A stretch of 64,000 nucleotides of DNA from Lachnospiraceae bacterium (GTDB lineage: Bacteria > Bacillota > Clostridia > Lachnospirales > Lachnospiraceae): positions 62,001 to 126,000 of the forward strand of contig JAQVHQ010000005.1 of the NCBI GenBank assembly GCA_028696165.1, written 5' to 3'. Made by a program: the position numbers and the translations under genes. Below, piece by piece: positions 5,360 through 62,978 of this stretch (position 1 is the stretch's first letter; every line of letters begins with the position of its first letter). The notes under the pieces were generated by a model. It worked only from the letters and a program-made list of their open reading frames with translations. It was not told where the DNA came from and did no database searches.

Positions 5360-6394
5360 ATGGCATTTGAATTCATAACCAAGCTGCCAATCCCAGAACA
5401 AATTCGAAACGAATACCCAGTTCCAGAAGCGGTAGCAGCCAATAAAGCAAAACGAGACGAGATGATTCGCAAAGTATTCACCGGAGAATCTGACAAATTT
5501 CTAGTAATCGTAGGTCCATGTTCCGCCGACAACGAAGACGCTGTCTGCGACTACGTAAACCGTCTGGCACGTATTCAGGAAAAAGTATCCGATCGTCTGA
5601 TACTAATCCCGCGTGTCTACACCAACAAACCAAGAACTACTGGTGAAGGCTACAAAGGAATCGTCCATCAGCCAGACCCTGAGAAGAAACCAGACCTCCT
5701 TGCCGGATTAGTAGCTATGAGAAAAATGCATATCCGCGTTATGGAAGAGACCGGTCTTACCGCTGCAGACGAAATGCTGTATCCGGAAAACTGGCAGTAT
5801 TTAAAAGACATTCTCTCCTACGTAGCAGTAGGTGCACGCTCCGTAGAAAATCAGCAGCATCGATTGGTAGTAAGCGGCATTGACATTCCAGCCGGAATGA
5901 AAAATCCAACCAGCGGCGACTTAGAAGTTATGTTAAACTCCGTAGTTGCAGCCCAGGGAAAACACATGTTTATCTATCGTAACTGGGAAGTAAAAACTGA
6001 TGGCAACCCATTATCCCACACTATATTACGTGGTGCAGTAAACAAACATGGCAATGCAATTCCAAACTACCACTATGAGGATTTACAGTTATTGCTGGAG
6101 AAATACAACGAACGCGACCTGGCAAATCAGGCAGCAATCATTGACACCAATCATTCAAACTCCAACAAGCAGTATGACCAGCAGATTCGTATTGCAAAAG
6201 AAGTCCTTCACAGCCGCAAAGTCTCTCCAGATATTGCTCAGCTGGTAAAAGGTCTTATGATTGAAAGTTACATAGAACCTGGCTGTCAGAAGATTGGAAC
6301 CGGAAACCATGTATATGGCAAATCCATCACCGATCCATGTTTGGGCTGGTCCGAAACAGAACAGTTAATTTACACAATTGCTGAAACCTGCTAA
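5360..6394 (+). CDS. aroF: 3-deoxy-7-phosphoheptulonate (DAHP) synthase, class I
   Basis: 344 residues. Condenses phosphoenolpyruvate with erythrose 4-phosphate, the first step of the shikimate pathway. Class I AroF/G/H signatures are clear: VIVGPCSADN near 50-60, IPRVYTNKPRTTGEGYKG near 92-110, GARSVENQQHR, and the DTNHSNS metal/substrate motif near 260. The ATG at 5360 follows AAGAGGA at proper distance; the ATG at 5336 precedes that site and is rejected. Single gene between a promoter and a bidirectional terminator. Other pathway genes are distant at 47.6-50.3 kb. Confidence 0.95.
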   Translation: MAFEFITKLPIPEQIRNEYPVPEAVAANKAKRDEMIRKVFTGESDKFLVIVGPCSADNEDAVCDYVNRLARIQEKVSDRLILIPRVYTNKPRTTGEGYKGIVHQPDPEKKPDLLAGLVAMRKMHIRVMEETGLTAADEMLYPENWQYLKDILSYVAVGARSVENQQHRLVVSGIDIPAGMKNPTSGDLEVMLNSVVAAQGKHMFIYRNWEVKTDGNPLSHTILRGAVNKHGNAIPNYHYEDLQLLLEKYNERDLANQAAIIDTNHSNSNKQYDQQIRIAKEVLHSRKVSPDIAQLVKGLMIESYIEPGCQKIGTGNHVYGKSITDPCLGWSETEQLIYTIAETC

Positions 6395-8228: not shown

Positions 8229-9788
8229 TTATTTTGCATAATCAGTAACACGACTTTCGCGAATTACATTTACTTTGATCTGACCAGGATATTCTAATTC
8301 CTGTTCAATCTGTTTGGAAATATCACGGGCCAGCAATACCATATCAGCATCATTTACTGTCTCAGGTACTACCATAACACGAACTTCCCTACCTGCCTGA
8401 ATGGCAAAAGATTTATCCACACCTTTGAAAGTGTTGGTAATATCTTCTAACTGTTTCAATCTGTTTGTATATGTTTCTAGTGTTTCTCTTCTCGCTCCAG
8501 GTCTTGCTGCTGAAATCGCATCAGCGGCCTGTACGATACAAGCAATTAAGGATTCTGGTTCTACATCACCGTGGTGAGATTCAACGGTGTTAATAACCAA
8601 TGCTGATTCCTTATACTTCTTACATAAGTCAGCACCAATCTGAATGTGGGATCCTTCCACTTCATGATCGATGGATTTTCCAATGTCATGCAGCAATCCG
8701 GCTCTCTTCGCCATGCGAATGTCCACACCAACCTCAGCGGCCAGTAATCCGGATAATTGTGCTACTTCAATAGAATGTTTCAATGCATTCTGACCATAAC
8801 TTGATCTGTAACGCATTCTTCCCAGTAATCGAACTAACTCTGGATGAATACCATGTACACCTACTTCCATACATGCATTATCGCCTTCTTCTCGAATTAA
8901 TGCATCTACTTCTTTCTGTGCTTTTTCAACCATCTCTTCAATACGAGCTGGATGAATTCTTCCATCAACAATTAATTTCTCAAGTGCAATTCTTGCTACT
9001 TCCCTACGGATTGGATCAAAGCTGGATAAAACAACTGCTTCCGGTGTATCATCAATGATTAAATCTACACCTGTCATCGTCTCCAGTGTACGAATGTTAC
9101 GACCTTCACGACCGATAATTCGTCCCTTCATCTCATCATTAGGAAGCTGTACAACTGAAATAGTTGTCTCTGATACATGATCAACCGCACATTTCTGAAT
9201 GGCTGATACCACATACTCTTTTGCCTTTTTACCGGCATCTTCTTTTGCTTTTGATTCTAATTCTTTGTAAAGCTTTGCTGTGTCATGTTTTACGTCGTCT
9301 TCTACAGATTTTAACAGATATTCTTTTGCCTGTTCGGAGGTTAAACCGGAAATTCGCTCCAGTTCTTGTACTTCCTGATCGTGCATTTCGTCGACTTTCT
9401 TTTCTTTCTTTTTAATCTCTGTCTCTTTTGCTGTGTAGTCAGCCTCTCTCTTTTCCAGATTGTTGGCTTTCTTTTCAACTGCTTCTTCTTTCGCTAAAAC
9501 GCGCTTTTCATATTTTTGCAGTTCAGCTCGTCTTTCCTTGGTTTCTTTTTCCAAATCATTCTTCATACGAAGAGATTCTTCTTTTGCCTCCAACTGAGCT
9601 TCTCGTTTCTTAGTTTCTGCCGTTTTCAGGGCATCATCTATGATGTTTCTTGCTTTGTCTTCTGCTGTACCAACTGTGTCACTATCTTGTTTCACTTTGT
9701 TGGCAACCGCAACTTTGCAAGATACAGGAACCGCAATAAGCAGTGTAACCACTACCGCAACAACTATGCTTATAATAATTGTTGTCAC
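8229..9788 (-). CDS. rny: ribonuclease Y
   Basis: 519 residues, the usual length. N-terminal membrane anchor (about 1-25), long charged coiled coil (about 40-190), KH domain with the [11 protein letters not shown] motif near 227-237, and a metal-dependent HD domain with [10 protein letters not shown] near 367-376. RNase Y is the membrane-bound endonuclease that starts mRNA decay in many Firmicutes. The start is GTG with AAGGAGG in front. Transcribed as recA-recX-rny neighbours, ending at the adjacent terminator. Confidence 0.97.
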
Positions 9789-9855
9789 AGGAGCACCTCC
9801 TTATTTAGTTTTCATTGTACAAATACAACAGTTCAATTTTATACTGTTTTCTGCA

Positions 9856-10314
9856 TTATGTCAAGTTTTCTTCGTGCAAAATGCACCAAATATCTTGATT
9901 TTTAAATCCTTGTCTAGCTAAATATCCAACAATTCGTGCTAATTCTTTTTCATTTGGTTTTTCAGGCTTATTCCATTTCTTCTTCACAAGACTTCGAACT
10001 ACTTCTTTTTCCTCTGCTAATTCCAGTTCTTCATATGCCTGTGCAACCAAATCCGCACTCACTCCCTTATTTCCCAATTCATACTGCAAGCGTATCCTCC
10101 CCCTCTGATGCTGATGGGTACGGATATACATTCTCGCGTAACGTGCATCATCTATATAACCATAGGATTTTACATATTCCACAGCTGCTAAGACAGCCTC
10201 CTCAGAAAATTTGCTTCTGCGAAGGCTGTTACTTAAATCATACTCCGAACGATCCATTCTGGTTAAGATCTGCATTGCTTTACGCTTTGCTTTTTTTATC
10301 TCATCTTCTGCCAT
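9856..10314 (-). CDS. recX: regulatory protein RecX
   Basis: 152 residues built of three-helix RecX repeats, with characteristic YVKSYGYIDDARYA near 48-61 and KGVSADLV and later LARQGF elements. RecX binds RecA filaments and limits their extension. Located directly downstream of recA on the same strand, the standard arrangement. The 100-bp gap to recA contains an 18-bp direct repeat (about 10379-10414) but no obvious terminator, so co-transcription from the SOS promoter is likely. Confidence 0.93.
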   Translation of the reverse strand: MAEDEIKKAKRKAMQILTRMDRSEYDLSNSLRRSKFSEEAVLAAVEYVKSYGYIDDARYARMYIRTHQHQRGRIRLQYELGNKGVSADLVAQAYEELELAEEKEVVRSLVKKKWNKPEKPNEKELARIVGYLARQGFKNQDIWCILHEENLT

Positions 10315-10415
10315 TCTCAGAATCTCCGTTTATCTGTTTCTTATTTTTACTTTTATGCTTTCTGTCTATACTTTTTCTACTATTTTTATGCCTTAGCCTC
10401 TTTTTATGCCTTAGC

Positions 10416-11486
10416 TTATTTCTCCGCTTTTGCTTCCTTCTCGGCCGTTTCTTTTGCTTTTTCTTTCATTGCTTTTTCATCGGCTGGATTCGTCTTTAAA
10501 CCATAGAATTCACGAACTTTATTTTCTACTTCTTCCATAATCTCCGGATTCTCACGAAGATAATTTTTAGCGTTCTCACGACCCTGTCCTATCTTTGCAT
10601 CATTATAAGCGAACCACGCTCCACTTTTTTGAATCACATTAATATTAGCCGCGAGATCTAAGATATCACCTTCTCTTGTGATCCCCTTACCAAACATAAT
10701 ATCAAATTCTGCTTCCTTAAATGGAGGCGCAATCTTATTCTTTACAACTTTAACTCTGGTACGGTTACCAATCACTTCACCATTCTGCTTTAAAGATTCA
10801 ATTCTGCGAATATCAAGACGAATAGAAGAATAGAATTTCAATGCACGGCCTCCTGTTGTAGTTTCTGGATTACCGAACATAACTCCGATTTTCTCACGCA
10901 GCTGATTAATAAAGATAACAATACAGTTAGACTTACTGATAACTGCTGTCAATTTTCTAAGTCCCTGGGACATAAGTCTGGCCTGCAGTCCCATATGAGA
11001 ATCACCCATATCTCCATCAATCTCAGCTTTCGGTACTAAAGCAGCAACTGAATCGACAATTACTATGTCTACAGCACCTGAACGAACCATAGTCTCTGTA
11101 ATCTCTAATGCCTGTTCTCCATTATCTGGCTGTGATATATACAAATTATCAATATCTACTCCAATGTTTTTGGCATATGCAGGATCCAGAGCATGCTCAG
11201 CATCAATAAATCCAGCAATTCCACCTCTTTTTTGTACTTCTGCTACCATATGTAAAGCTACTGTAGTTTTACCACTGGATTCCGGTCCGTACACTTCTAC
11301 AATACGGCCTCTCGGAATACCACCAAGTCCCAAAGCTATATCTAAACTAAGTGAACCTGTAGGAACTGTCTCAACATTCATATTCGTTCCTGAATCACCA
11401 AGCTTCATAACAGAACCTTTACCAAACTGTCTTTCTATCTGACCAAGCGCTGCATCCAGTGCTTTCATCTTATCTTCTTTTAACAT
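10416..11486 (-). CDS. recA: recombinase RecA
   Basis: 356 residues from the ATG at 11486, which has AAGGAG at ideal spacing; the longer frame to 11534 lacks a ribosome site and runs through the LexA box. Walker [10 protein letters not shown] (about 67-75), Walker [13 protein letters not shown], and loop L2 with the [10 protein letters not shown] pattern are present. The C-terminus is a Lys/Glu/Ala-rich tail. Catalyses strand exchange and LexA self-cleavage. Regulated by the SOS box at 11506-11519 and promoter at 11534-11562. Confidence 0.98.
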
Positions 11487-11505
11487 ATATATCTCCTTTT
11501 CTTTG

Positions 11506-11519
11506 CGAACGAATGTTCG
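11506..11519. promoter_or_regulatory. LexA (SOS) box of recA
   Basis: The 14-bp palindrome CGAACGAATGTTCG fits the Gram-positive LexA consensus (GAAC-N4-GTTC core). It lies between the -10 element and the ribosome site of recA. Confidence 0.88.
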
Positions 11520-11533
11520 ACTTTCTAGATACA

Positions 11534-11562
11534 ATATTATTACATTTTTGTTTTTTTGTCAA
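11534..11562 (-). promoter_or_regulatory. promoter of recA
   Basis: Minus strand TTGACA (11557-11562), 17-bp spacer, TAATAT (11534-11539), immediately upstream of the LexA box. Confidence 0.8.
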
Positions 11563-11786
11563 TCAATTTCTTTGGGAATTCTAAGGGAATTTACTAAGAG
11601 TTTTCTTTTTAATTTGGCGACTGCCATGTACGACTTGAAATAGTATATTTACTTTATCATAATATTCACCTATGGTCAAGAACACATCCATTGATACAGC
11701 CATAGATTTTCCACCTTCTACTTTATGTTCTCAATGAATCAACCTGATTTTTCCATCTTAATAACCTATCCTTGCTTCAAATAATT

Positions 11787-11822
11787 AAGAGAGCACATAC
11801 AATACGCTGTATGCACCCTCTT
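11787..11822 (-). terminator. possible terminator of glgA
   Basis: On the minus strand a 14-bp stem pairs fully if three G-U pairs are allowed, with an 8-nt loop. The following bases (AATTATTT) are only weakly T-rich. The rest of the gap 11563-11900 shows no gene. Confidence 0.45.
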
Positions 11823-11900
11823 GAATTATCCACTGGATATAATTTACTTTGCAAATCATTTTAAAAATAATCAATTTAGATACTTGTTTTTAGCCAAGCC

Positions 11901-13340
11901 CTATGCAAGCCAGTCATATAATTCCTGATACTGTGCTGCTGAACTGCTCCAGGAGAAATCTTTTGCCATAGCACGGTCTACAATTTTGTTCCATTCCCGC
12001 TTCTTGTCATAATATACCTGTTCTGCATAACGAACAGTTTTTAGCATCTCCTGTGCATTATAATTTGTAAAACTAAATCCTGTACCGGTTCCCTCATATT
12101 CATTGTAAGGTTCTACCGTATCTTTCAATCCACCTGTTTCACGAACAATCGGTACTGTTCCATATCGCAAACTCATCAGCTGACTTAAGCCACACGGTTC
12201 AAACAATGAAGGCATTAAGAAGGCGTCACAGGCTGCATAAATTTTATGCGACATAGGTTCTGAATAATAGATATTCGCAGACACTTTATCGTTATACTTC
12301 CAATCATAATGGCGGAACATATTTTCATATTTCTCATCACCGGTTCCAAGTACAACCAGCTGAATTCCATCCTGACAAAGCTCATCCATCACATAAGCAA
12401 TCAAGTCAAAGCCCTTCTGATCGGTAAGACGTGATACGATACCTATCATCATGGTCTTTGGATTTTGCTCGAGGCCAAGTTCCTTCTGTAATGCTGTCTT
12501 GTTTTTTATCTTTTCCTTGCGGAAATTCTTCGCATTAAAATTCTTAGTAATTAATTTATCCGTCTCAGGATTATAATCTGTATAATCAATTCCATTTACG
12601 ATACCTCTAAGACTGTTCTGTCTTGCCCTCATAAGGCCGTCGAGATTTTCACCATAGAATGGGGTTTTAATTTCCTCTGCATAAGTATTGCTGACGGTTG
12701 TGATTGCATCTGCATATACCAGACCGCCTTTCAGTAAATTAGCATCCTTATTAAACTCCAGTTTATCAGGAACGAAATAATAATCCGGTAATCCAGACAT
12801 AGCCTGAATAGTCTTAATATCCCAGGTTCCCTGGAATTTCAGATTATGTATAGTCATAACTGACTTGATGCCCCAATAAAACTGATTCTGTTGGAAACTG
12901 TCTTTTAAATATACCGGTACTAATCCAGTCTGCCAGTCATGGCAATGGATAACATCCGGTCTAAAATCGATTACTGGCAGTGCAGACAGCAACGCTTTGG
13001 AGAAATAAATATATTTTTCAATATCCCAGAGAATATCGCCGTAAGGCTTCTCCCCTGTGAAATAATATTCATTGTCAATAAAATAGAATGTAATTCCATC
13101 ATACTCCATTTCCAAAATTCCTACATATAAACTCTTACCGGCCAAATCCATATAAAAGTGGTTGTTATAAACCAGCTTATCTTTGAATTCATCCTTCATA
13201 CATGAGTATTTCGGTAAAATGACACGTACATCAAAATACTCCTTATCAAAACACTTCGGCAATGACCCTGCTACATCTGCCAAACCACCTGTCTTAATAA
13301 ACGGTACACACTCTGAAGCTGCAAACAAAATCTTTTTCAT
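11901..13340 (-). CDS. glgA: glycogen synthase GlgA (ADP-glucose type, GT5)
   Basis: 479 residues, normal for bacterial GlgA. N-terminal ADP-glucose contact motif in FIKTGGLADVAGSLPK (about 14-29). C-terminal GT-B features include SRLTDQKGFDL near 302-312 and the FEPCGLSQL motif with catalytic Glu near 375-383. Extends alpha-1,4-glucan from ADP-glucose. No glgC, glgD or glgP lies nearby, so the gene stands apart from a glycogen operon. It follows spo0A on the same strand, and coordination of storage with sporulation is only a guess. Confidence 0.95.
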   Translation of the reverse strand: MKKILFAASECVPFIKTGGLADVAGSLPKCFDKEYFDVRVILPKYSCMKDEFKDKLVYNNHFYMDLAGKSLYVGILEMEYDGITFYFIDNEYYFTGEKPYGDILWDIEKYIYFSKALLSALPVIDFRPDVIHCHDWQTGLVPVYLKDSFQQNQFYWGIKSVMTIHNLKFQGTWDIKTIQAMSGLPDYYFVPDKLEFNKDANLLKGGLVYADAITTVSNTYAEEIKTPFYGENLDGLMRARQNSLRGIVNGIDYTDYNPETDKLITKNFNAKNFRKEKIKNKTALQKELGLEQNPKTMMIGIVSRLTDQKGFDLIAYVMDELCQDGIQLVVLGTGDEKYENMFRHYDWKYNDKVSANIYYSEPMSHKIYAACDAFLMPSLFEPCGLSQLMSLRYGTVPIVRETGGLKDTVEPYNEYEGTGTGFSFTNYNAQEMLKTVRYAEQVYYDKKREWNKIVDRAMAKDFSWSSSAAQYQELYDWLA

Positions 13341-13446: not shown

Positions 13447-14247
13447 TCATAGATTTTTGTTCTCCAATCGGATTTTGTCTGCAATTAATGCAATAAACTC
13501 TGAATTAGTTGGCTTTCCCTTTCCATTATTAACAGTATACCCAAATAATTTGTCTATAGTATCCATCTTTCCTCTGCTCCAGGCTACTTCAATAGCATGG
13601 CGAATGGCACGTTCAACTCTGCTTGGTGTAGTCTGATGACGTTTGGCAATGGTTGGATATAGTATTTTAGTGATTGAATTAAGCATCTCCATATCATTTA
13701 CGGATAGGATAATTGCATCTCTCAAATATTGATATCCTTTTATATGTGCCGGTACACCTACCTCATGTATAATGTCCGTCACGATACTTTCTAGATCAAC
13801 CTTTTTCACCTCATTAACCCCAATACTGATTTGTCCCCTGGAACGGATACCCTGGTTTAGATGTGCCTGATAACCACGCAGGCGTTTTATACGGTTTAAA
13901 ATCATAGCATTATCAAATGGTTTTAAAATATAGTAATTTGCACCCAGACTAAAAGCATCTTCTGTAATCTGTTCCTGGCTTACCGCAGATACGACAATAA
14001 ACGCTGGTGGTTTCGCCACTTCCGGATCCTTTGCGACTTTCTCCATTACTGTAAGTCCATCCACTTTTGGCATAATTATATCCAGCAAAACCACATCCGG
14101 CTGTTTTTCCTTTATGATTTGATAGATATCTTCTCCATTATTAGCCTGACCCACCAACTCAAGTTCCTTATCGTTTTTAATAATCGTTCCCAGTAGATTT
14201 ATAATTCTTTCATTATCATCTGCAATCGCTATATTCAGTTTCTCCAT
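13447..14247 (-). CDS. spo0A: sporulation master regulator Spo0A
   Basis: 266 residues: receiver domain (about 1-125) with phosphoacceptor Asp56 in [10 protein letters not shown], acidic pocket near 10-11, and Lys in LKPFDN near 108. The C-terminal effector domain (about 155-266) carries the recognition-helix region [14 protein letters not shown], which is nearly invariant in Spo0A. Phosphorylated Spo0A binds 0A boxes (TGTCGAA) to start sporulation. Two such boxes and a vegetative-type promoter lie upstream. Unlike the common order, spoIVB is not its direct neighbour; 3.1 kb of other sequence lies between. Confidence 0.97.
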
Positions 14248-14311
14248 CGTCCCTGCTCCTCATCTTATATTCAAAAAAGCGCTTTTCTCTTTTATGGCTG
14301 CCATGGGTATA

Positions 14312-14339
14312 ATTATAATACGCCACTTATGGAAAGCAA
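14312..14339 (-). promoter_or_regulatory. candidate vegetative promoter of spo0A
   Basis: Minus strand TTGCTT (14334-14339), 16-bp spacer, TATAAT (14312-14317), 65 bp before the spo0A start. Confidence 0.55.
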
Positions 14340-14377
14340 GCATTGAAACTGTAAATTTGTTGTTTTTCGTCGCACTA

Positions 14378-14454
14378 TTCGACATCTTTTTGTAATTCAT
14401 GGTATTTTTCTGCCAATTTCTGCATATTGTTTCATTTTTGTATATTTTTCGACA
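14378..14454 (-). promoter_or_regulatory. two Spo0A boxes upstream of spo0A
   Basis: Exact TGTCGAA on the minus strand at 14378-14384 and 14448-14454, 131 and 201 bp before the spo0A start and upstream of the vegetative-type promoter. Two exact copies within 77 bp suggest autoregulation. Confidence 0.7.
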
Positions 14455-14597
14455 TACTCTGAATTTTAAATTTTCTTTTCATTTTTCTATCTTTAGATAA
14501 TAGAATACAGATTTTGCTTTTTTTCTTTCATATGTTCAAAAATCCCACTCATATGTTGTGCATATTTAACATCTTTTTCTCTGCACAGCATGTTTTC

Positions 14598-14626
14598 TTG
14601 CACACTTTTTCCAATTATGATATAGT
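14598..14626 (+). promoter_or_regulatory. promoter of the UroD-like gene
   Basis: TTGCAC (14598-14603), 17-bp spacer, TATAGT (14621-14626), followed by GGAGGAGG before the start codon. Confidence 0.55.
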
Positions 14627-14667
14627 GAAATTAGCATTAATCACTCAATTGTGGAGGAGGAAACTAT

Positions 14668-15672
14668 ATGTTAACAAAGAGACAAAATCTATTGGAAACT
14701 ATCCGTGGAGGTCATCCTGACCGTCTGGTAAACCAGTATGAAGCATTTGAATGTACCGATGCTGTCTACAAGATGATTATGGGCGATCCGATTACCGCAC
14801 AGGGAGAAGCTGTATTTCCCGGAAGCGGACCAAAGAAAAACGCATGGGGTATCACTTTTGACTGGCCACTGCATGAGCCAGGTATGTTCCCTGTACAAGA
14901 TGATGCGCATAAGGTAGTTAAGGACATTACAAAATGGCGTGAAGTTGTAAAAGCTCCTGAGACTAACCTGCCGGCAGAGGCATGGGAACCATTTATGGAA
15001 ACAGTAAATAAAATCGACCGCAATGAAGTATTTGCTACTGCGTTTGTAGCTCCTGGCGTGTTCGAGCAGTGCCATCACCTTATGGGAATGGATGACTGTA
15101 TGCTGAATCTGTATCTGGAACCGGAAGCAATGCACGAACTGATTGATTATATTACAGATTATGAACTAAGATATGCCGAACAGCTCTGTAAATATTACAA
15201 ACCAGACTGTATCTTCCATCATGATGACTGGGGCAGCTCTACTAATTCTTTTATGTCTCCTGAGATGTTTGAAGAATTCTTTGTACCTGCTTATAAGAAG
15301 ATTTACGGATATTATAAGAGCCATGGTGTTGAATTAATTGTTCATCACAGTGATTCTTATGCTGCTAACCTTGTACCTTATATGATTGAAGTCGGTATCG
15401 ATATCTGGCAGGGCTGCGTTTCTAACAATAAAGTATCTGAGCTGATTAAGAAATACGGCGGACAAATTTCATTCATGGGTGATATTGACAATTCCAAGAT
15501 TGACCGTGAAGACTGGACTGCCGAGAAGGTAAGTGCTGAAGTTGACCGTGCTGTAGAAGAGAACGGAAATCTCTATTACATCCCATGTATTACACAAGGT
15601 GGTCCTGGAAGCGTATATCCGGGTGTTTATGAGGCAATTACAGATGAGTTGAATCGTTTGAACAACAAATAG
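14668..15672 (+). CDS. UroD/MtaA-family protein, probable corrinoid-linked methyltransferase
   Basis: 334 residues with the UroD TIM-barrel pattern: SSTNSFMSPEMFEEFFVPAYKKI near 190-213 and a C-terminal CITQGGPGSVYPGVYEAI near 308-325. In MtaA-type methyl-corrinoid:CoM methyltransferases the zinc site reads H-x-C; here the corresponding segment is HHSDS (about 227-231), so the first Cys is absent although a later Cys (PCITQGG) remains. True uroporphyrinogen decarboxylase is unlikely, as no heme genes are near. Monocistronic, with a strong GGAGGAGG site and a strong terminator. Substrate unknown. Confidence 0.7.
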   Translation: MLTKRQNLLETIRGGHPDRLVNQYEAFECTDAVYKMIMGDPITAQGEAVFPGSGPKKNAWGITFDWPLHEPGMFPVQDDAHKVVKDITKWREVVKAPETNLPAEAWEPFMETVNKIDRNEVFATAFVAPGVFEQCHHLMGMDDCMLNLYLEPEAMHELIDYITDYELRYAEQLCKYYKPDCIFHHDDWGSSTNSFMSPEMFEEFFVPAYKKIYGYYKSHGVELIVHHSDSYAANLVPYMIEVGIDIWQGCVSNNKVSELIKKYGGQISFMGDIDNSKIDREDWTAEKVSAEVDRAVEENGNLYYIPCITQGGPGSVYPGVYEAITDELNRLNNK

Positions 15673-54277: not shown

Positions 54278-54853
54278 ATGGAAACGAAATCTAAAACTAA
54301 GACTTTAATGAAACTATTTTTAAGTACACTATATATCAGTTTTTTCACTTTTGGGGGTGGATTTGTCATTATTACATTTATGAAGAAGAAATTTGTTGAT
54401 GAACTAAACTGGATTAGTGAAGATGAGATGTTAGATTTGACAGCTCTGGCCCAGTCATCTCCCGGTGCCATCGCTGTTAATGCTGCCGTATTGGTCGGCT
54501 GGCGCGTTGCAGGTTTTGCAGGTATGCTCACTGCAGTTATTGGAACCATCCTGCCTCCTATGCTGATTCTTACGATTATATCCTTCTTTTATTCCGCATT
54601 TGTCTCCAATATCTATGCTGCTTTGTTGCTAAAGGGCATGCAGGCCGGGGTGGCTGCAGTTATTCTGGACGTTGTCTGTGATCTTGGATCTAATATTATG
54701 AAAATGCATCGCTTTTATTATATTATTATTATGCTTGCTGCTTTTATTGCAGTTTTTTTCTTTGAAATCAATGTGATATATATCATATTAGCGGCCGCAT
54801 TGTTTGGAATTGTCTTAGAAATATTACAACATACCAGGAGGAAACAGATATGA
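54278..54853 (+). CDS. chromate transporter family protein, first half (short-chain CHR)
   Basis: 191 residues with about six hydrophobic segments. Family signatures FFTFGGGFVIITFMKKKFVDE (about 19-39) and AQSSPGAIAVNAAVLVGWRVAG (about 53-74). Short CHR proteins work as pairs equal to one full-length ChrA. Chromate export is the family name, but the substrate in an anaerobe is unproven. Its stop overlaps the start of the next gene (ATGA). Confidence 0.9.
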   Translation: METKSKTKTLMKLFLSTLYISFFTFGGGFVIITFMKKKFVDELNWISEDEMLDLTALAQSSPGAIAVNAAVLVGWRVAGFAGMLTAVIGTILPPMLILTIISFFYSAFVSNIYAALLLKGMQAGVAAVILDVVCDLGSNIMKMHRFYYIIIMLAAFIAVFFFEINVIYIILAAALFGIVLEILQHTRRKQI

Positions 54854-55422
54854 TTTATCTGCAATTATTCTTTAGTTTTCTGCAGGTTGGACTATTTAGC
54901 ATTGGCGGAGGCTACGCTGCTATGCCATTGATAAAAAGCGAAGTTGTAAGCGGACATGGCTGGCTGTCCATGAGTGAATTTACAGATTTAATTACAATAG
55001 CGGAGATGACTCCCGGACCAATTGCGGTTAACTCAGCAACCTTTGTAGGCATACGCATTGCCGGCATACCAGGCGCAGTCATTGCAACAATGGGGTGTAT
55101 TCTTCCCTCGCTTTTGCTCGTGTCATTACTCGCATTTATTTACTATCGATATAAAAAAGTATCGGTTCTGCAGAGCATTTTAGGAAGTCTTCGTCCCGCT
55201 GTTGTCGCACTGATTGCAGCTGCTGGTTTATCTATTCTTCAACTAGTTGTCTTTAACGATGGTATTGTCAACATTTCTAATCTAGATTGGATTGGAATTA
55301 CTATTTTTATAGTTGCTTTTATCACATTGAGAAAGAAGAAATGGAATCCCATATTTATAATGATATTATGCGGAATAACAGGACTTGTCTTAAACCTGTT
55401 TATGAAACTGCTCCAACAGTAG
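54850..55422 (+). CDS. chromate transporter family protein, second half (short-chain CHR)
   Basis: 190 residues, six or so hydrophobic segments, LFSIGGGYAAMPLIKSEVV (about 15-33) and AEMTPGPIAVNSATFVGIRIAG (about 51-72). Homologous to its upstream partner and translationally coupled to it. Both would form an antiparallel pair in the membrane. Followed by a GC-rich hairpin at 55485-55535. Confidence 0.9.
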   Translation: MIYLQLFFSFLQVGLFSIGGGYAAMPLIKSEVVSGHGWLSMSEFTDLITIAEMTPGPIAVNSATFVGIRIAGIPGAVIATMGCILPSLLLVSLLAFIYYRYKKVSVLQSILGSLRPAVVALIAAAGLSILQLVVFNDGIVNISNLDWIGITIFIVAFITLRKKKWNPIFIMILCGITGLVLNLFMKLLQQ

Positions 55423-56132: not shown

Positions 56133-57149
56133 TTAGTACCAATCATGTTTCTCATCACGATTTAGAGCATTAATCTGTTCCATCTCATCATCTGTTAATT
56201 CAAAGTCATACAATTCTGTATTTTCCTTTATATGATCCGGATTGCTTGAACCCGGAATAACGATAACACCCTTTTGCAGGTTCCACCTAAGGATTATTTG
56301 CGCAGAAGATTTTCCATGCGCTTTCGCAATCTGAGAAATCACTTCATCTCCCAGAAGTTCTGCTGTATAACCTCTGCCACCCAGAGGATACCAGCCCTGT
56401 ACAACAATCCCTAAATCTTGAATATAGGGAATCACATCGTTTTCCTGATAATATGGATGAATTTCGTTTTGAATCAAAGCCGGGGTGATTGTAATCTGCG
56501 GAAGAAATGTTTCCAACTCTTTTATATACCAGTTCGACAATCCGATAGAACGAACTTTTCCATCCACCACAGCCTGTTCCATCGCCTTATATGCCTCCAC
56601 ATCGTTTGTACCCGGATGATGTAAGAGAAGCAGGTCAATATATTCAATATCCAATTTATCCAATGCTTCGTCAATGGAATTTGCTGCATCAGCATACTGG
56701 TTTGGATAGAGTTTTGTCGTTACAAATATTTCTTCTCTTGGAACACCTGATTCCCGTACTGCTTTACCAACTTCTGCTTCGTTGTGATACATATTGGCCG
56801 TATCGATCAAGCGGACCCCTTCTTTAAGAGCTGTTGTTACAGCATCTATGCACTCCTGATCTAAAAGGCTATATGTACCGAGTCCGTTGATTGGCATTTC
56901 ATATCCACTATTTAGTGTAACTGTCTTGGTTTCGAAATTAAACTGACGAATCATTGTCTGTTCCTCCTTGTTCACCTCTGTTTTATCCTGCCTGGCATCC
57001 TCAGCCAATGGCGCTTCTTTCTCTACGGAATAATCATCTGCCATTTCTGTTGATGATGCAGAATTTTCATAACTATCATCTGCACTACTACATCCAAATA
57101 AACTAAAGCTCATGATTGCAATAGCCAATATAATTATTGCATTTTTCAT
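56133..57149 (-). CDS. lipoprotein aldo/keto reductase
   Basis: 338 residues: lipoprotein signal with SLFGC lipobox (Cys20), an acidic spacer (about 21-65), then a complete AKR (about 68-338). Catalytic tetrad visible: Asp in RLIDTANMY, Tyr of the same motif, Lys in VTTKLYP and His in LLLLHHPG. NADP site IPGSSNPDHIKEN. Surface location is odd for an NADPH enzyme, unless the cofactor is available inside a complex. Last gene of the redox cluster. Confidence 0.88.
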   Translation of the reverse strand: MKNAIIILAIAIMSFSLFGCSSADDSYENSASSTEMADDYSVEKEAPLAEDARQDKTEVNKEEQTMIRQFNFETKTVTLNSGYEMPINGLGTYSLLDQECIDAVTTALKEGVRLIDTANMYHNEAEVGKAVRESGVPREEIFVTTKLYPNQYADAANSIDEALDKLDIEYIDLLLLHHPGTNDVEAYKAMEQAVVDGKVRSIGLSNWYIKELETFLPQITITPALIQNEIHPYYQENDVIPYIQDLGIVVQGWYPLGGRGYTAELLGDEVISQIAKAHGKSSAQIILRWNLQKGVIVIPGSSNPDHIKENTELYDFELTDDEMEQINALNRDEKHDWY

Positions 57150-57168
57150 TTTTCTGCAATGCTCCTTA

Positions 57169-57849
57169 TCATTTCTTAGGCATGGATATTTTCTTCAATC
57201 TATCAGATACAAAATATCCAATGACGGCAAACAAGACCATCATAGACACATAGTCCAGATAAACGCCAAATGCCATCCTGTTAAAGTCATAGAACATAAA
57301 TTGAGCTTGATAAAACATATATTGCCACAGCTTTGTATCTATAAATACTTTCAAACCATATACACCTATGACTGCAAACAATATCGCAAATACTCTACTT
57401 GATACTGTTCCTAACTTCTTTCCCCGCGCCTGCTCCATATAACCTTTCATGATTTTCAAATGCATACCTAAATGAAATGAGGTAAGTACAAACATCCAAT
57501 GTGTACATATCATATGCGCTGCCCTAGCAAATGAAATTCCTTGGTTAACATTCAGGAAAGCAAATACATACTGCGACAATAGGATTCCACTTATCGCTGA
57601 AAGAATCATACATAGCAAGATCCCAGCATTCACTACTGTTCCAAGACTTCTGACCACGCTGTATTTCCCTTTTAATAGATTTTTATGCCAATTGAAATTC
57701 AATAAATGATGCAAAATGAATAGGAGGAACATAAAAATTCCAATCCATTCATGTAATTCTTCGCCTGCAAGAGCCTGAATCATCAAAAGAGGTAACAAGA
57801 TGGTCATAATTAAATCCACTATCATTTTTATGATACTTTTTTTCTTCAT
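57169..57849 (-). CDS. DUF4405-like membrane cytochrome b-type protein
   Basis: 226 residues with five or six transmembrane helices. Several His lie within or next to helices (HEWIG, HHLLNFNWH, HMICTHW, FHLGMHL), the arrangement of heme-ligating cytochrome b-like DUF4405 proteins. It could pass electrons from the membrane to the lipoprotein redox partners on either side. Heme binding is inferred only. Confidence 0.7.
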   Translation of the reverse strand: MKKKSIIKMIVDLIMTILLPLLMIQALAGEELHEWIGIFMFLLFILHHLLNFNWHKNLLKGKYSVVRSLGTVVNAGILLCMILSAISGILLSQYVFAFLNVNQGISFARAAHMICTHWMFVLTSFHLGMHLKIMKGYMEQARGKKLGTVSSRVFAILFAVIGVYGLKVFIDTKLWQYMFYQAQFMFYDFNRMAFGVYLDYVSMMVLFAVIGYFVSDRLKKISMPKK

Positions 57850-57861
57850 GAAGCCTCCAAA

Positions 57862-58623
57862 CTAATTACCATATCCGATTTCAGACAGCCAATCCTGCAT
57901 ATCCTGATCAGTCAACTGAGCTACCTGCGAATGACTTACTGAAAAAATGTTCTTTTCAACTTCTGCATCCGGTTCCAAACCCGAAGTCTTAGAATAAGCG
58001 TCTCTTGGTCCGCCACCGCCACTTGAATTAAAGAGATAAATCTTCTTGCCCGACAAATCATATTCATCAAGGAACGAATATACTGCCATTGGCATATCGC
58101 CATACCAATTAGGGAATCCAAGAAAAACAACATCATAATCATCCATGTTTTCCACATGAGTTGCAAGTTCAGGCCGTGCGTTTTCTCTGTTTTCCTTATT
58201 TACATAAACATCAAGTTCATTATTATCACTAGAATCATATTCCGATGGATATTGTTTGGAAGTCTCTATAAAATGAATATCACCACCTGTCACATCTCGA
58301 ATCAATTCCGCCATATACTCCATGTTTCCAAGTATATTTTCTCCCTGTGTAACCACACTTGCAGATGAAACCGCATCAATTTCGTGTTCAGAGTCTATAT
58401 TGCCAATCCGTGAAAAGTAGGCTATCAATACATTCGAGCCTGCATTTTCCAGAGTATTTTGGTCTTCACTCTCATTTAAACCGGCCTCTTCAGAAGCTGT
58501 TTCGTTTTTCGAAGAAGTCGTAGCAGCCTGCGTATTTTCCGATGCTTCATTTGATGTATTACCACACCCATCTAATAAAGTCACTAATATAAGCATCAGT
58601 ACTAATACTTTTATCTTTTTCAT
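57862..58623 (-). CDS. lipoprotein flavodoxin
   Basis: About 253 residues from ATG 58623 (AAGAGGAA in front). Lipobox LLDGC (Cys20), Ser/Thr/Glu linker to about 60, then a flavodoxin fold: NVLIAYFSRIGN (FMN phosphate loop variant), FLGFPNWYGDMP (isoalloxazine loop) and FNSSGGGGPRDA. An exported FMN electron carrier, probably linked to the DUF4405 protein and the lipoprotein reductase next to it. Confidence 0.88.
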   Translation of the reverse strand: MKKIKVLVLMLILVTLLDGCGNTSNEASENTQAATTSSKNETASEEAGLNESEDQNTLENAGSNVLIAYFSRIGNIDSEHEIDAVSSASVVTQGENILGNMEYMAELIRDVTGGDIHFIETSKQYPSEYDSSDNNELDVYVNKENRENARPELATHVENMDDYDVVFLGFPNWYGDMPMAVYSFLDEYDLSGKKIYLFNSSGGGGPRDAYSKTSGLEPDAEVEKNIFSVSHSQVAQLTDQDMQDWLSEIGYGN

Positions 58624-58655: not shown

Positions 58656-59804
58656 TTACCAAAAGCTATTCTCATCTTGAAATTCTGATGCAAGCTTAAG
58701 TTCTTTGGCCACATCAATTTGTACTGGACAAACCGCGCTGCATTTACCGCACTCATCGCATAGATTGCCTCCATGCTGGCGACGCTTCAATGGACGATAA
58801 TAATTCAATTCTACATTTACATTCAGCCCCTGCTCACGCTGACGCATAATGGTATTATAGGTAGCCAGAATATCAGAAATATGAATGTTCTTTGGACATA
58901 CTGCATCACATTTCCCGCATTGACTGCAAACTATTGTTTTGCTCTGTTTCATCTCATCAACTGTTTGTTCAAGAACAGCTTGTTCCTGTTGATTAAGTGG
59001 TATAAACTCCTGCATATAAGAGGTATTATCCATCATCTGCTGGATACTGGACATTCCAGATAAAACCATCATGACACCTTCAAGACTTGCTGCAAAACGA
59101 ACAGCCCAAGAAGCCGGAGTCATGTCTGGCTGCACCTGATTCATCTCAGACTTTACACTCTGTGGTACCTGAGACAACATACCGCCCTTAACTGGCTGCA
59201 TCACAATGACCTGACGTCCATGCTTGCGAATCACTTCATAACAACGGCGGGACTGCACAAATTCACTGTTCCAATCATAATAGTTCAATGCGATCTGAAC
59301 GAACTCCACTTCCGGATGTTCAGTCAGAATTCTGTCAAGAACCTCTGGACTATCATGAAAGGACATTCCCAAGTGACGGATTTTCCCAGCCTCTTTCATT
59401 CGTCGTGCAAAGCCAAACTCATCACATGGGACAATATTTTCATCATAGTTTGTTTCCCATATATTATGCAGCAAATAATAGTCAAAATAAGTAACTCCAC
59501 ATCGCTCCAGCTGTTCCTCAAAAATAGCTGGAATCTGTTCCGGCTTTGTGATGGAAAATGTGGGCAATTTGTCTGCCAGTAAAAAGCTATCACGAGGATA
59601 TCTTTTTACCAACGCTTCCTTGAGTGCCACTTCACTTTTTCCATTATGGTACACATAGCTTGTATCAAAATAAGTAAATCCACGCTCCATAAAAGTGTCC
59701 ACCATTTGACAAAGCTGATTTATATCTATATTTTCTGCACTAAAAATGTCTTCAACCTCACCCTGCAAAGGGAGACGCATACATCCAAACCCTAGTCTTT
59801 TCAT
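58656..59804 (-). CDS. aldo/keto reductase with C-terminal 2[4Fe-4S] domain
   Basis: 382 residues. AKR domain (about 1-280) with YFDTSYVYH, ADKLP and YYLLHNI in place of the usual tetrad context, then two CxxCxxCxxxCP clusters (CSQCGKCDAVCP near 296 and CDECGKCSAVCP near 346). Typical of anaerobe Fe-S aldo/keto reductases that can take electrons from ferredoxin-like donors. Cytosolic. Confidence 0.92.
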   Translation of the reverse strand: MKRLGFGCMRLPLQGEVEDIFSAENIDINQLCQMVDTFMERGFTYFDTSYVYHNGKSEVALKEALVKRYPRDSFLLADKLPTFSITKPEQIPAIFEEQLERCGVTYFDYYLLHNIWETNYDENIVPCDEFGFARRMKEAGKIRHLGMSFHDSPEVLDRILTEHPEVEFVQIALNYYDWNSEFVQSRRCYEVIRKHGRQVIVMQPVKGGMLSQVPQSVKSEMNQVQPDMTPASWAVRFAASLEGVMMVLSGMSSIQQMMDNTSYMQEFIPLNQQEQAVLEQTVDEMKQSKTIVCSQCGKCDAVCPKNIHISDILATYNTIMRQREQGLNVNVELNYYRPLKRRQHGGNLCDECGKCSAVCPVQIDVAKELKLASEFQDENSFW

Positions 59805-60071: not shown

Positions 60072-60785
60072 TTAGATACCCTGTTTTGTCGGACGAATGA
60101 CAATCTCGCTGACAGACATACGATCCGGTGTTTCAATGGCATAAGCAACTGCGGTTGCAATATCTTCTGCTGTTAATGAATCTATCGTCTTACGGAACTC
60201 CAGCTCAGCTTGACGAGCACTCTCACTCTGAATTGATTTATAAAGATCAGTTGCTACATTACCTGGTGCAATGATAGTTGATTTGATATTATCCATACGA
60301 TGTTCTTGGCGTAGACCTTCCATAATTGCACGAACAGCAAATTTTGTTCCGCAGTAAACCGTAGAGTTTTCATAAACATGATATCCTAACACAGAATCAG
60401 TAGCAATGATATGACCGCCTTTTTGCTCCACCATGACAGGTAATACTGCCGAAATACCATTTAGCACACCCATGACATTAATATCGAGCAACTGACGCCA
60501 CTCATCTCTTCTACCTTCAATCAACGGAGCCGTAGGCATAATACCTGCATTGTTATAAAGAACATCTACACGTCCATGAAGTTCCACTGCCATATCGATG
60601 ACAGCTTTAACTTCATCAAAATCAGTTACATCTGCTGTCTTATAAGCGACATTACTTTCAGGCAGAGTATCTGCCAATGCCCTAAGTTTTTCTTCTCGTC
60701 TGGAAGCGATTACCAGCTTTGCACCTTTATTTGCTAATAACCTAACAGTCGCTTCACCAATTCCGCTGGAAGCACCTAAAATCAC
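60072..60785 (-). CDS. short-chain dehydrogenase/reductase with unclear start
   Basis: 237 residues from a GTG at 60785, which falls inside the first beta strand: the preceding in-frame codons still encode KYKKDKVI, the normal SDR N-terminus, back to the stop codon of the upstream gene, but no ATG exists there. Motifs: GASSGIGEA, NNAGIMP, Ser in TDSVLG and YCGTK (Tyr/Lys pair). Enzyme reducing carbonyl groups with NAD(P)H. No ribosome site seen; ATT, GTG or coupled re-initiation may serve. Confidence 0.8.
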   Translation of the reverse strand: MILGASSGIGEATVRLLANKGAKLVIASRREEKLRALADTLPESNVAYKTADVTDFDEVKAVIDMAVELHGRVDVLYNNAGIMPTAPLIEGRRDEWRQLLDINVMGVLNGISAVLPVMVEQKGGHIIATDSVLGYHVYENSTVYCGTKFAVRAIMEGLRQEHRMDNIKSTIIAPGNVATDLYKSIQSESARQAELEFRKTIDSLTAEDIATAVAYAIETPDRMSVSEIVIRPTKQGI

Positions 60786-60818
60786 AATAACTTTATCTTT
60801 TTTATATTTATTTGTTTT

Positions 60819-61172
60819 TTATGCTAACTCAACAAGGAACGTTGCGGTATTTGGTAATTTCTTCAATGTTGCAAGATGTTCCTTTTGGATATGTCCAATG
60901 ATCATCATGTCAGTATATGTTTCTGATTCTTCTTCACCACCATACAACAATGCGAACCAGCCACCTGCCAGGTTAATATCGCCATTTTTCCATCCGTTCT
61001 GTCTTTCTATCGGATTACTTTTTCCTTCTTTGGCAACGCAACAGTAATCAATGCCTGAGTCATTTCCTGTCACTTTAAATGGCAGTCTGCCTACAAAATC
61101 ATTTGCAGCCACTGTATCATTTAGCACGGCTGGGATCACAATATCTCCTGATGTTATTTTTATATTTGTCAT
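60819..61172 (-). CDS. cyclophilin-like fold protein
   Basis: 117 residues. Pattern IKITSGDIVIPAVLNDTVAANDFVGRLPFKV, NGWKNGDINLAGGWFALLYGG and MMIIGHIQKEHLATL matches the small cyclophilin-like family common in anaerobe redox operons. Catalytic activity unproven. The stop is in the same frame as the SDR that follows. Confidence 0.8.
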   Translation of the reverse strand: MTNIKITSGDIVIPAVLNDTVAANDFVGRLPFKVTGNDSGIDYCCVAKEGKSNPIERQNGWKNGDINLAGGWFALLYGGEEESETYTDMMIIGHIQKEHLATLKKLPNTATFLVELA

Positions 61173-61210
61173 TCAATTTTCTCCTTTCCGATAATCCTTA
61201 TATGCCTTAA

Positions 61211-61435
61211 TCATTTTGATTGCTTAATATAATCTGACTCAATCAGATAATCCAGGCAATTTAGCTGTTTTTGTTTCATTTGTATTTCTGCAAGAAGTCT
61301 AGTTCGATATTCGTGAAGCTTCTTTCTGCCGCATCCCATTTCCCCCATCTGAAAATATTCCAAACAGGTCTCTATTGATGCATCATCCATTCCTGCATCC
61401 TTCATGCAAGTTTTTATCTGCGTATTTTTTCCCAT
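61211..61435 (-). CDS. small helical protein resembling a MerR effector helix without HTH
   Basis: 74 residues, all helix by eye. AGMDDASIETCLEYFQMGE followed by LLAEIQMKQKQLNCLDYLIESDYIK resembles the C-terminal dimerisation coiled coil of MerR-type regulators (LEEQIAELQEALDYLDYKI-like), but no HTH precedes it. It begins one base pair after the flavin reductase ends. Either a truncated regulator or an independent dimerisation peptide. Confidence 0.55.
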   Translation of the reverse strand: MGKNTQIKTCMKDAGMDDASIETCLEYFQMGEMGCGRKKLHEYRTRLLAEIQMKQKQLNCLDYLIESDYIKQSK

Positions 61436-61963
61436 TTATAGTGATTCTCCAAATGCTCTTAATCTTTCCAATGTCTTCTGCGAATAGTTCTCTGCACCAT
61501 GCGCGGTAAACACGCCCATATCTTCAAGTCCTAAATAGTCAAGGAAATCTCCTTGATATGAGAACATGGCACCATCGTACATCTTGGCATCACCTGAACT
61601 TAGAATCATAGTAACCTTCTGTAGTTTCGCTGGTTTGGTTGGATAAGCTGCCGAATAAAAACGATCCAGAACACATTTCAATTGTCCTGACACACCATGA
61701 TAATAAATAGGTGATGCAATCACCAGCATTTCACATTCACTTAAATGCTTATATACTTCCTGCATATCATCCTTCTGGATACATGCTCCATGACCTTTTC
61801 CATGACAATATTCACATGCCAGGCAGCCAGCTATTTTTTTCTTGCAGATATCAATTACATTTACCTCATGTCCTTTTATTTCTGCACCTTCTTTAAATGC
61901 TTTTATCATGCTGCTTGTGCTGCCCTGTGGTCTTGGACTTCCGTTTAATACTAATATCTTCAT
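61436..61963 (-). CDS. NADPH-dependent FMN reductase / flavodoxin-fold protein
   Basis: 175 residues. KILVLNGSPRPQGSTSSMI (FMN phosphate loop), Cys-rich CLACEYCHGKGHGAC near 47-61 as in iron-sulfur flavoproteins, ASPIYYHGVSGQLKCVLDR flavin loop. The Cys arrangement may bind a cluster. Second gene in the cluster, downstream of a weak hairpin. Confidence 0.9.
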   Translation of the reverse strand: MKILVLNGSPRPQGSTSSMIKAFKEGAEIKGHEVNVIDICKKKIAGCLACEYCHGKGHGACIQKDDMQEVYKHLSECEMLVIASPIYYHGVSGQLKCVLDRFYSAAYPTKPAKLQKVTMILSSGDAKMYDGAMFSYQGDFLDYLGLEDMGVFTAHGAENYSQKTLERLRAFGESL

Positions 61964-61988
61964 CTACATTTCTCCATTCTGTTATAGT

Positions 61989-62016
61989 AAATGCCGGACA
62001 AGGTTATCCGGCATTT
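61989..62016 (-). terminator. weak terminator-like hairpin in the redox cluster
   Basis: AAATGCCGGA/TCCGGCATTT with an 8-nt loop followed by TTTACTATAAC, between the hydrolase and FMN reductase genes. The T-run is short, so partial termination is more likely than full. Confidence 0.5.
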
Positions 62017-62021
62017 GTTTT

Positions 62022-62978
62022 CTATAAATATTTTCTGATAAATGCTTCCACTTTATCAAAAGGAATGATTTCTTTGATATCATACAAATCTGTGTGAACA
62101 GCATCCGGAATAATCATTAATTCTTTATTATCACCAGTCAGTTTTGCAAAAGCATCCTTACTCAAATAGCAGGAATGTGCCTTTTCTCCATGCATCACAA
62201 GAACTGCACTGCGGATTTCATCACTGTACTGAAGGATTGGCATATTCATGAAAGACAATGCAGATGTGGTATTCCATCCTTCGTTGGAATTAAGAGAACG
62301 CTCGCTATAACCACGCTCTGTTTTATAGTAATCAAAATAGTCTTTGATGAAAAATGGTGCATCTGCTGGCACTTCATCTACAACACCGCCTGCTCGCTGA
62401 TAGGTTCCATTTTTGAAATCTAAGGTACGCTGTGCATTTAACGCTTTTTTCTTCTCATATCGTGCATCAGCACTATCTTCTGCATCAAAATATCCTTTAG
62501 CATTTACACGAGTCATATCATACATAGTAGAAGAAACTGTGACTTTGATACGGGTATCCATTGCCGCCGCATTGATTGCCATACCGCCAAACCCACAGAT
62601 TCCAATAATGCTGATTTTTTCAGCATCAATATTATCCTGTACAGATAAGAAATCGACCGCTGCTGAAAAATCCTCCGTATTAATATCTGGTGAAGCTACA
62701 TTTCTTACATCTCCACCGCTTTCACCAATAAATGATGGATCAAAAGCAAGTGCAATGAATCCACGGGATGCCATTTCATCTGCATAAAGTCCGGAAGCCT
62801 GTTCTTTCACCGCACCAAAAGGACCTGCTACTGCGATTGCAGGAAGTTTCCCTGATGCATTCTTTGGTGTATACAGATCTCCTGCCAATTCAATTCCGTA
62901 TCGATTTCTAAATTTTACTTTTGTTCTGTTGATCTTTTCATTAAGTTGAAAAGTATATCCTTCATAAGCTGCTTTCAT
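62022..62978 (-). CDS. alpha/beta hydrolase with Cys nucleophile
   Basis: 318 residues, dienelactone hydrolase-like. The nucleophile elbow is GICGFGG with Cys128 in place of Ser; Asp and His are in the C-terminal part (PDAVHTDLYD). YADEMASRGFIALAFDPSFIGESGG is the family's cap-lead segment. First gene of the cluster, divergent from the LysR regulator. Substrate unknown. Confidence 0.85.
   Translation of the reverse strand: MKAAYEGYTFQLNEKINRTKVKFRNRYGIELAGDLYTPKNASGKLPAIAVAGPFGAVKEQASGLYADEMASRGFIALAFDPSFIGESGGDVRNVASPDINTEDFSAAVDFLSVQDNIDAEKISIIGICGFGGMAINAAAMDTRIKVTVSSTMYDMTRVNAKGYFDAEDSADARYEKKKALNAQRTLDFKNGTYQRAGGVVDEVPADAPFFIKDYFDYYKTERGYSERSLNSNEGWNTTSALSFMNMPILQYSDEIRSAVLVMHGEKAHSCYLSKDAFAKLTGDNKELMIIPDAVHTDLYDIKEIIPFDKVEAFIRKYL

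Follow-up and report, generated by a model that had tools for sequence, protein, structure and literature searches.

A clade of predicted exported aldo/keto reductases tied to flavodoxins, traced from a Lachnospiraceae gene cluster

The DNA analysed here, which we call the window, is a stretch of 64,000 nucleotides (contig JAQVHQ010000005.1, positions 62,001 to 126,000) from the genome of a Lachnospiraceae bacterium (GCA_028696165.1; 3.77 Mb, 112 contigs). It holds a minus-strand cluster transcribed in the order [4Fe-4S] aldo/keto reductase, flavodoxin, DUF4405 membrane protein and a second, leader-bearing aldo/keto reductase. Aldo/keto reductases are textbook cytosolic enzymes using reduced nicotinamide adenine dinucleotide phosphate (NADPH), and it is the leader-bearing one, together with its flavodoxin, that concerns us. 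The features of this pair and of the membrane protein between them are as follows.

56133..57149, minus strand: aldo/keto reductase with a predicted lipoprotein leader, 338 amino acids (aa) (Pfam PF00248 Aldo_ket_red, 2.8e-53)
57090..57149, minus strand: predicted signal peptide and lipobox LFGC of this reductase, with Cys20 (from the sequence; N-terminus MKNAIIILAIAIMSFSLFGC)
56963..56969, minus strand: Shine-Dalgarno word AAGGAGG of a possible internal start (from the sequence and from enrichment in the family)
56952..56954, minus strand: internal ATG (Met66) at the linker-to-fold junction, with a predicted 273-aa leaderless reductase as product (from the sequence)
56220..56258, minus strand: cofactor segment IPGSSNPDHIKEN, with Gly and His replacing the Lys and Arg of the NADP 2'-phosphate site (from alignment)
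57169..57849, minus strand: DUF4405 cytochrome b-like membrane protein (Pfam PF14358, 4.8e-8)
57862..58623, minus strand: predicted Flavodoxin_4 lipoprotein, 253 aa, Cys20 in LLDGC (Pfam PF12682, 2.6e-18; N-terminus MKKIKVLVLMLILVTLLDGC)
58357..58377, minus strand: flavinylation-like motif DAVSSAS in the insertion between beta1 and alpha1, with Ser89 as candidate bearer of flavin mononucleotide (FMN) (from the sequence, its relatives and the available text of PMC11334425)

Export signals were judged by lipobox patterns and N-terminal hydrophobicity, standing in for signal-peptide prediction. An earlier reading made from the letters alone (hereafter the sequence-only reading) had described both proteins as lipoproteins with a clear lipobox ending in Cys20. 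The coordinates and residues are correct by sequence in both, and the description as clear suits LFGC of the reductase; LLDGC of the flavodoxin is less clear, having an Asp at -2, which is unusual in a lipobox, and the pattern needed widening before it matched. The syntenic flavodoxin of another locus, L145 (62% identical), has VMSGC at this place, and the lipobox pattern was matched by 25 of 28 flavodoxin relatives (L148-L175). Each window protein carries a signal peptide with a lipobox Cys, followed by a linker of about 45 residues, which supports both as predicted exported lipoproteins with predicted lipidation. Coordinates of the flavodoxin were counted from the ATG at 58623; a TTG is also present upstream, at 58662.

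The reductase proved to belong to a larger group. Scanning bacterial genomes yielded 79 loci, with the best 80 of 404 kept; the patterns included the linker peptides STEMADDY and NKEEQTMI, so that leader-linker forms are favoured in this sample. Family and phylum searches were run with fold-only queries, and matches of at least 60% identity were found in 32 of 299 family genomes (4 of them partial) and in 7 of 398 phylum genomes, the window's own genome being included in both counts. Open reading frames reaching 60% identity or more across a stretch longer than 200 residues numbered 119, or 108 distinct ones after near-identical copies were dropped. An export signal stands at the start of 103 of these 108, with a lipobox pattern in 80 and a hydrophobic N-terminus in 23, several of the latter having a lipobox visible by eye. 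Since so many distinct relatives start in this way, we do not regard the window signals as products of chance. Two genome labels, Alistipes (L063) and Methanomassiliicoccus (L052), may reflect contamination in assembled genomes.

By architecture the 108 comprise 62 leader-linker-reductase proteins, 34 leader-flavodoxin-reductase fusions, 7 with other domains and 5 filed as signal-less. Among these five, L017, L118 and L122 seem to be truncated or interrupted, the linker of L024 contains a stop codon, and L114 genuinely lacks a leader; L118 was counted as hydrophobic in the signal scoring, yet starts inside the flavodoxin part. Pfam analysis of ten proteins found, ahead of the reductase, S-layer homology (SLH) domains in L053 and L127, a dockerin in L120, Big_2 domains in L018, L035 and L051, and Cyclophil_like2 in L020, L079 and L121. 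It is extremely improbable that the signals are spurious and both window proteins ordinary cytosolic enzymes: the Asp at -2 of the flavodoxin lipobox would fit such a reading, which is already contradicted by the conservation of signals across both families and by these extracellular modules. The lipobox of L110 is of RR type and its genome contains TatC, while a search of the window's own genome for TatC gave no match. Exported forms also occur at 49-55% identity: L137, L138 and L140 have a lipobox, and L139 combines a hydrophobic signal with a flavodoxin domain whose loop type is different; L141, at 48% identity, is leaderless. All 108 retain the Asp-Tyr-Lys-His tetrad of aldo/keto reductases. 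On these patterns, a predicted exported aldo/keto reductase clade tied to flavodoxins appears to be real and wider than one window.

The tie to flavodoxins is clearest from the fusions. In a quick tree, whose warnings flag several long branches as possibly misplaced, a branch with support 99 splits the exported forms from nine cytosolic relatives, and the window reductase groups with two fusions, L054 and L055, the latter from Robinsoniella (support 90). The fusion label (35 rows including L139) changes 16 times on this tree, at least six of these changes being forced by well-supported branches. Such repeated fusion and separation of flavodoxin and reductase domains is the strongest evidence that the two act jointly, and the 34 single-chain exported fusions back the suggestion of the sequence-only reading that a reduced flavodoxin could stand in as donor to the reductase. 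Both domains of the L055 fusion fold well in an AlphaFold2 model (predicted local distance difference test, pLDDT, 85.1; predicted template modelling score, pTM, 0.60), and its reductase part matches solved aldo/keto reductases by fold.

The flavodoxin and membrane protein resemble a published system. The window flavodoxin belongs to the FLAVINYLATED kind, with its DAVSSAS insertion lying after FSRIGN, between beta1 (LIAYFS) and alpha1. According to the available text of PMC11334425 (mSystems 2024), Flavodoxin_4 proteins with an insertion at this place are flavinylated by ApbE and need the predicted Ser/Thr, and DUF4405 is a heme b cytochrome that frequently accompanies them, heme b binding having been shown for another member. 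The window membrane protein scores 33.9 bits against PF14358 (cut-off 26.7). As far as that text goes, the window shares with the published system the motif insertion, the adjoining DUF4405 cytochrome and the (here predicted) extracytosolic location, and differs in the addition of an exported aldo/keto reductase and in its apbE genes, of which a whole-genome search found two, both on other contigs and neither in the same cluster. DAVSSAS as a covalent-flavin motif had been considered as a new idea and was rejected as already published there. The flavodoxin-cytochrome half is therefore a known system. Words starting with "aldo" occur 0 times in the main text of PMC11334425, and the exported reductase clade is described neither there nor in PMC8238504, as far as the available text of each goes, nor in what our literature search returned, which held nothing relevant on aldo/keto reductases that are exported or fused to a flavodoxin.

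Beyond the window, the 299 genomes searched contain 36 related flavodoxins in 24 genomes, 30 of which gave loci L146-L175 (window included). A DUF4405 relative lies inside the short flanks of 14 of these 30 loci, and 13 carry the strict flavinylation motif. DUF4405 was also considered as a general partner of the reductase and rejected, being found by BLAST with the window protein near only 1 of 79 reductase loci (L053), in addition to L145 and the window. The link between flavodoxin and cytochrome b made in the sequence-only reading is published for flavodoxins of this kind (PMC11334425, in its available part); beside the reductase the cytochrome is rare, and electrons would be expected to flow from one to the other.

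We then examined the cofactor site of the reductase. In an alignment with YvgN and other solved enzymes, the Lys and Arg of IPKSxxxxRIxEN, the 2'-phosphate sites, are replaced by Gly and His in the window protein; all 108 clade members have the same pair, as do the four more distant exported forms. DkgA and YvgN, of the 2,5-diketo-D-gluconate reductase type, share the fold and the tetrad (38% and 40% identity, respectively, to the reductase part of the L055 model); YvgN, YtbE and a trypanosomal enzyme retain the Lys and Arg in alignments, whereas the window clade has Gly and His, and the NCBIfam DkgA score of 211.9 lies below the cut-off of 425. To our knowledge, known members of the DkgA/YvgN type are leaderless. 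The clade is naturally Gly/His at two of the positions engineered in 1m9h, a 2,5-diketo-D-gluconate reductase with F22Y, K232G and a replaced R238, and the C-terminal 67 residues of the window reductase score 60.3 bits with 1m9h versus 53.0 bits with each of 1a80 and 1hw6. 1m9h was reportedly engineered to favour NADH and, unlike the window reductase with its predicted export, is a cytosolic enzyme. Loss of the NADP-phosphate residues was tried as a mark of export and rejected, as five of the nine cytosolic relatives have the same Gly/His change.

On the nicotinamide side, Ser140 (108 of 108), Asn141 (106), Gln162 (108) and Trp188 (108), which we take to be nicotinamide contacts, are nearly invariant. 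Retention of these residues and of the tetrad suggests that a nicotinamide cofactor is probably still used, and judging by its site the enzyme probably takes a nicotinamide nucleotide that is not specifically NADPH. The sequence-only reading had warned that NADPH-dependent reductases outside the membrane would lack their cofactor; the concern survives in spirit, although NADPH specificity itself is unlikely given Gly and His throughout the clade. Two further residues, Arg194 in GGRG (112 of 112 exported forms, that is 108 plus the four distant ones, versus 0 of 9 cytosolic) and His113 (111 of 112 versus 1 of 9), may be changes specific to the exported forms, close to the active site or to a surface that meets a partner. 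They would also suit an exported reductase working without any nicotinamide, to which flavodoxin FMN, docked at the mouth of the barrel, passed its electrons directly, as would the recurrence of flavodoxin-reductase fusion and the lost grip on the 2'-phosphate. We consider this quite unlikely, in view of the near-invariance of the four presumed nicotinamide contacts and of a fusion model without a settled interface.

The window reductase gene also contains what may be a second start. AAGGAGG stands 8 nucleotides ahead of the in-frame ATG of Met66, at the junction of linker and fold, so that the gene may give rise to a cytosolic form besides the exported one, which the sequence-only reading had considered. 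A Shine-Dalgarno-like word with a start codon occurs at the junction in 32 of 61 leader-linker members versus 7.9 +/- 2.4 expected from synonymous codon resampling, in which 0 of 2000 resamplings reached 32. When the members were split by the tree, the excess was present both in a large group (25 of 46 versus 6.5 expected) and outside it (7 of 16 versus 1.4 expected), with 0 of 1000 resamplings as high in each; forms with other domains had none (0 of 7). Scanning along the gene (n = 62) gave 27 cases at -5 to -1 and 7 at 0 to 4, with 0 to 3 in the remaining bins apart from 6 at +150 and 24 at +120. A literature search on internal starts returned nothing relevant.

This pattern could be a relic, the leader having joined in frame to a cytosolic gene whose old ribosome-binding site has not decayed, a reading compatible with export and with the flavodoxin partnership that removes the second product only. 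We regard it as quite possible, if somewhat on the doubtful side. Most cases fall within one group of 46 related sequences and the nearest outgroups are cytosolic, as a relic would predict; against it, cases also occur outside that group (7 of 16), and the more distant exported forms L137-L140 already have leaders. The codons at position -2 speak against it as well: among the 42 of 61 sequences with Met, Val or Leu there, 40 use ATG, GTG or TTG despite the changing residue (15 Met, GTG for 20 of 22 Val, TTG for 5 of 5 Leu), and the GTG share exceeds that of all 19 valine columns of the fold (maximum 0.77).

Flavodoxin lipoproteins were tried as a negative control for internal starts and failed as such, with 19 of 40 against 3.4 +/- 1.6 expected. 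By kind, internal starts occur in 19 of 27 of the non-covalent TGxT type, with 0 of 11 in those having insertion and motif (the window copy included, as well as L161, which looks misfiled) and 0 of 3 in others. The simplest reading is perhaps that a second start is retained in proteins able to work on either side of the membrane, and that a flavinylated flavodoxin, useful only outside, would do without one.

Taking these lines together, we favour, at a little under an even chance, the explanation that the pair is part of an electron-transfer system that is based on flavins and faces outward from the cytoplasmic membrane, with a captive NAD and a second start. We infer that the DUF4405 cytochrome b would carry electrons outward across the membrane to the lipoprotein flavodoxin, whose FMN would be covalently fixed by ApbE; this flavodoxin, or a non-covalent one, would supply the lipoprotein aldo/keto reductase, which in turn would reduce an extracellular carbonyl compound. 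A nicotinamide nucleotide, NAD-like and not NADP-like, is probably still bound to the reductase, and because free NADH is scarce outside, this nucleotide would need to be recharged in place by the flavodoxin. The second start, with its own ribosome-binding site, probably yields a leaderless cytosolic reductase using cellular NADH. What the sequences themselves show is the export signals, the fused domains, the motifs, the residues of the cofactor site and the enrichment of internal starts. Extended to the whole exported clade, the claim that an anchored flavodoxin recharges an enzyme-held nicotinamide, making an extracellular carbonyl reductase independent of soluble NAD(P)H, and that many leader-linker members are dual-sided through a second start, is more doubtful and is offered tentatively.

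Several observations weigh against this explanation. The L055 model gives no confident arrangement of its two domains (pTM as above). L145 retains both the flavodoxin and the cytochrome yet encodes a leaderless reductase, which counts against a strict need for export. The strict motif is missing in 17 of the 30 flavodoxin loci, some of which show looser forms by eye (DANAGAS, DTVAGAS), and the flavinylation insertion is found in 0 of 34 fused flavodoxins, leaving their retention of FMN outside the cell unexplained; the scarcity of DUF4405 beside the reductase and the Gly/His change of cytosolic relatives point the same way. As to the second start, the +120 bin within the fold scores nearly as high as the junction, and although it may simply reflect the conserved residues DVEAYKAM, it indicates that a start-like pattern can arise without a start. 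Fusions also show a weak excess (4 of 34 versus 1.0 expected, 7 of 1000 resamplings as high), and the members of the family are related, so that the internal-start counts are not independent.

Some of the same facts would fit a reductase that is mainly cytosolic, made from the internal start and working with NADH, its exported form being minor or scavenging and its link to flavodoxins that of a shared stress regulon. The junction start of the window and of 32 of the 62 leader-linker reductases, the conserved nicotinamide contacts, the leaderless reductase of L145 and the group of LysR-type regulators that neighbours 45 of 78 loci are all consistent with this. We nevertheless hold it rather unlikely, given that the signal is kept in 103 of 108 relatives, that the internal start is rare in the 34 flavodoxin fusions, and that SLH, dockerin and Big_2 modules would be senseless inside the cell.

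Two known cases come near to the favoured explanation, that of an outer-face system with a captive NAD. Glucose-fructose oxidoreductase of Zymomonas is reportedly exported and works with a trapped nicotinamide cofactor; it resembles the window enzyme as an exported oxidoreductase, and differs in belonging to an unrelated family and in reportedly using the twin-arginine translocation (Tat) route, whereas no TatC match was found here. The fumarate reductase-like enzymes of PMC8238504 (eLife 2021) are, in the available part of that paper, likewise extracytosolic reductases fed by a flavin module, from which the window differs in its aldo/keto reductase fold and in a flavodoxin replacing the FMN-binding domain. 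An exported clade repeatedly fused to flavodoxin would show a route by which anaerobes reduce carbonyl compounds at the cell surface, in detoxification or respiration. It would also allow one to ask directly whether a flavodoxin can drive a nicotinamide enzyme outside the cell, and may be a case of a single gene supplying both compartments.

The remaining genes of the window cluster lie upstream of the flavodoxin.

58656..59804, minus strand: the other aldo/keto reductase of the cluster, carrying a 2x[4Fe-4S] domain at its C-terminus; likely cytosolic, no signal being visible by eye (Pfam)
60072..62978, minus strand: SDR, Cyclophil_like2, FMN_red and alpha/beta hydrolase neighbours, no signals by eye (sequence, Pfam)

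The L145 gene row reads FMN_red-like, hydrolase, flavodoxin (62% identical, with DATSSAS), DUF4405 (46%), iron alcohol dehydrogenase-like (by eye) and reductase (73%), the FMN_red-like and hydrolase genes lying upstream of the flavodoxin as at the window. Among neighbour groups at 78 loci, FMN_red-like proteins occur at 41 and alpha/beta hydrolases at 22, in addition to the LysR-type regulators; the largest group (50 of 78) has another aldo/keto reductase as its representative, and flavodoxins may be mixed in. Genes resembling hexapeptide acetyltransferases neighbour the exported reductase at 44 of 78 loci, in most cases immediately upstream of it. For the LysR-type and hexapeptide acetyltransferase groups, a single representative of each was checked with Pfam.

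The window's own genome contains two further flavodoxin-DUF4405 clusters. One (L181) encodes a 759-aa protein joining DUF4405, a formylglycine-generating enzyme-like FGE-sulfatase domain and Flavodoxin_4 (9623-11902; G000:C74), together with several lipoprotein flavodoxins and a DUF362 lipoprotein. The same cluster has two Cyclophil_like2 lipoproteins (5633-6310 and 14038-15186), of which one stands by itself and the other is joined to a flavodoxin bearing the motif DATTSAS; these are a possible further part of the extracytosolic redox system. The second cluster (L182, 5707-6816) encodes an alpha/beta hydrolase that bears a lipobox (MRKHILLVLLASVMLAGC).

In three genomes (G175, G282 and G105) the reductase gene breaks off around codons 95-105 of the fold, at L142 (near 3688), L143 (near 3040) and L124. 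The sequence upstream of the cut is similar in all three, and in L142 and L143 the upstream frames resemble, by eye, the terminal part of a site-specific recombinase, so that the gene may serve a mobile element as its site of insertion. Beside the window cluster, two adjacent chromate transporter half genes lie on the plus strand (54278-55422).

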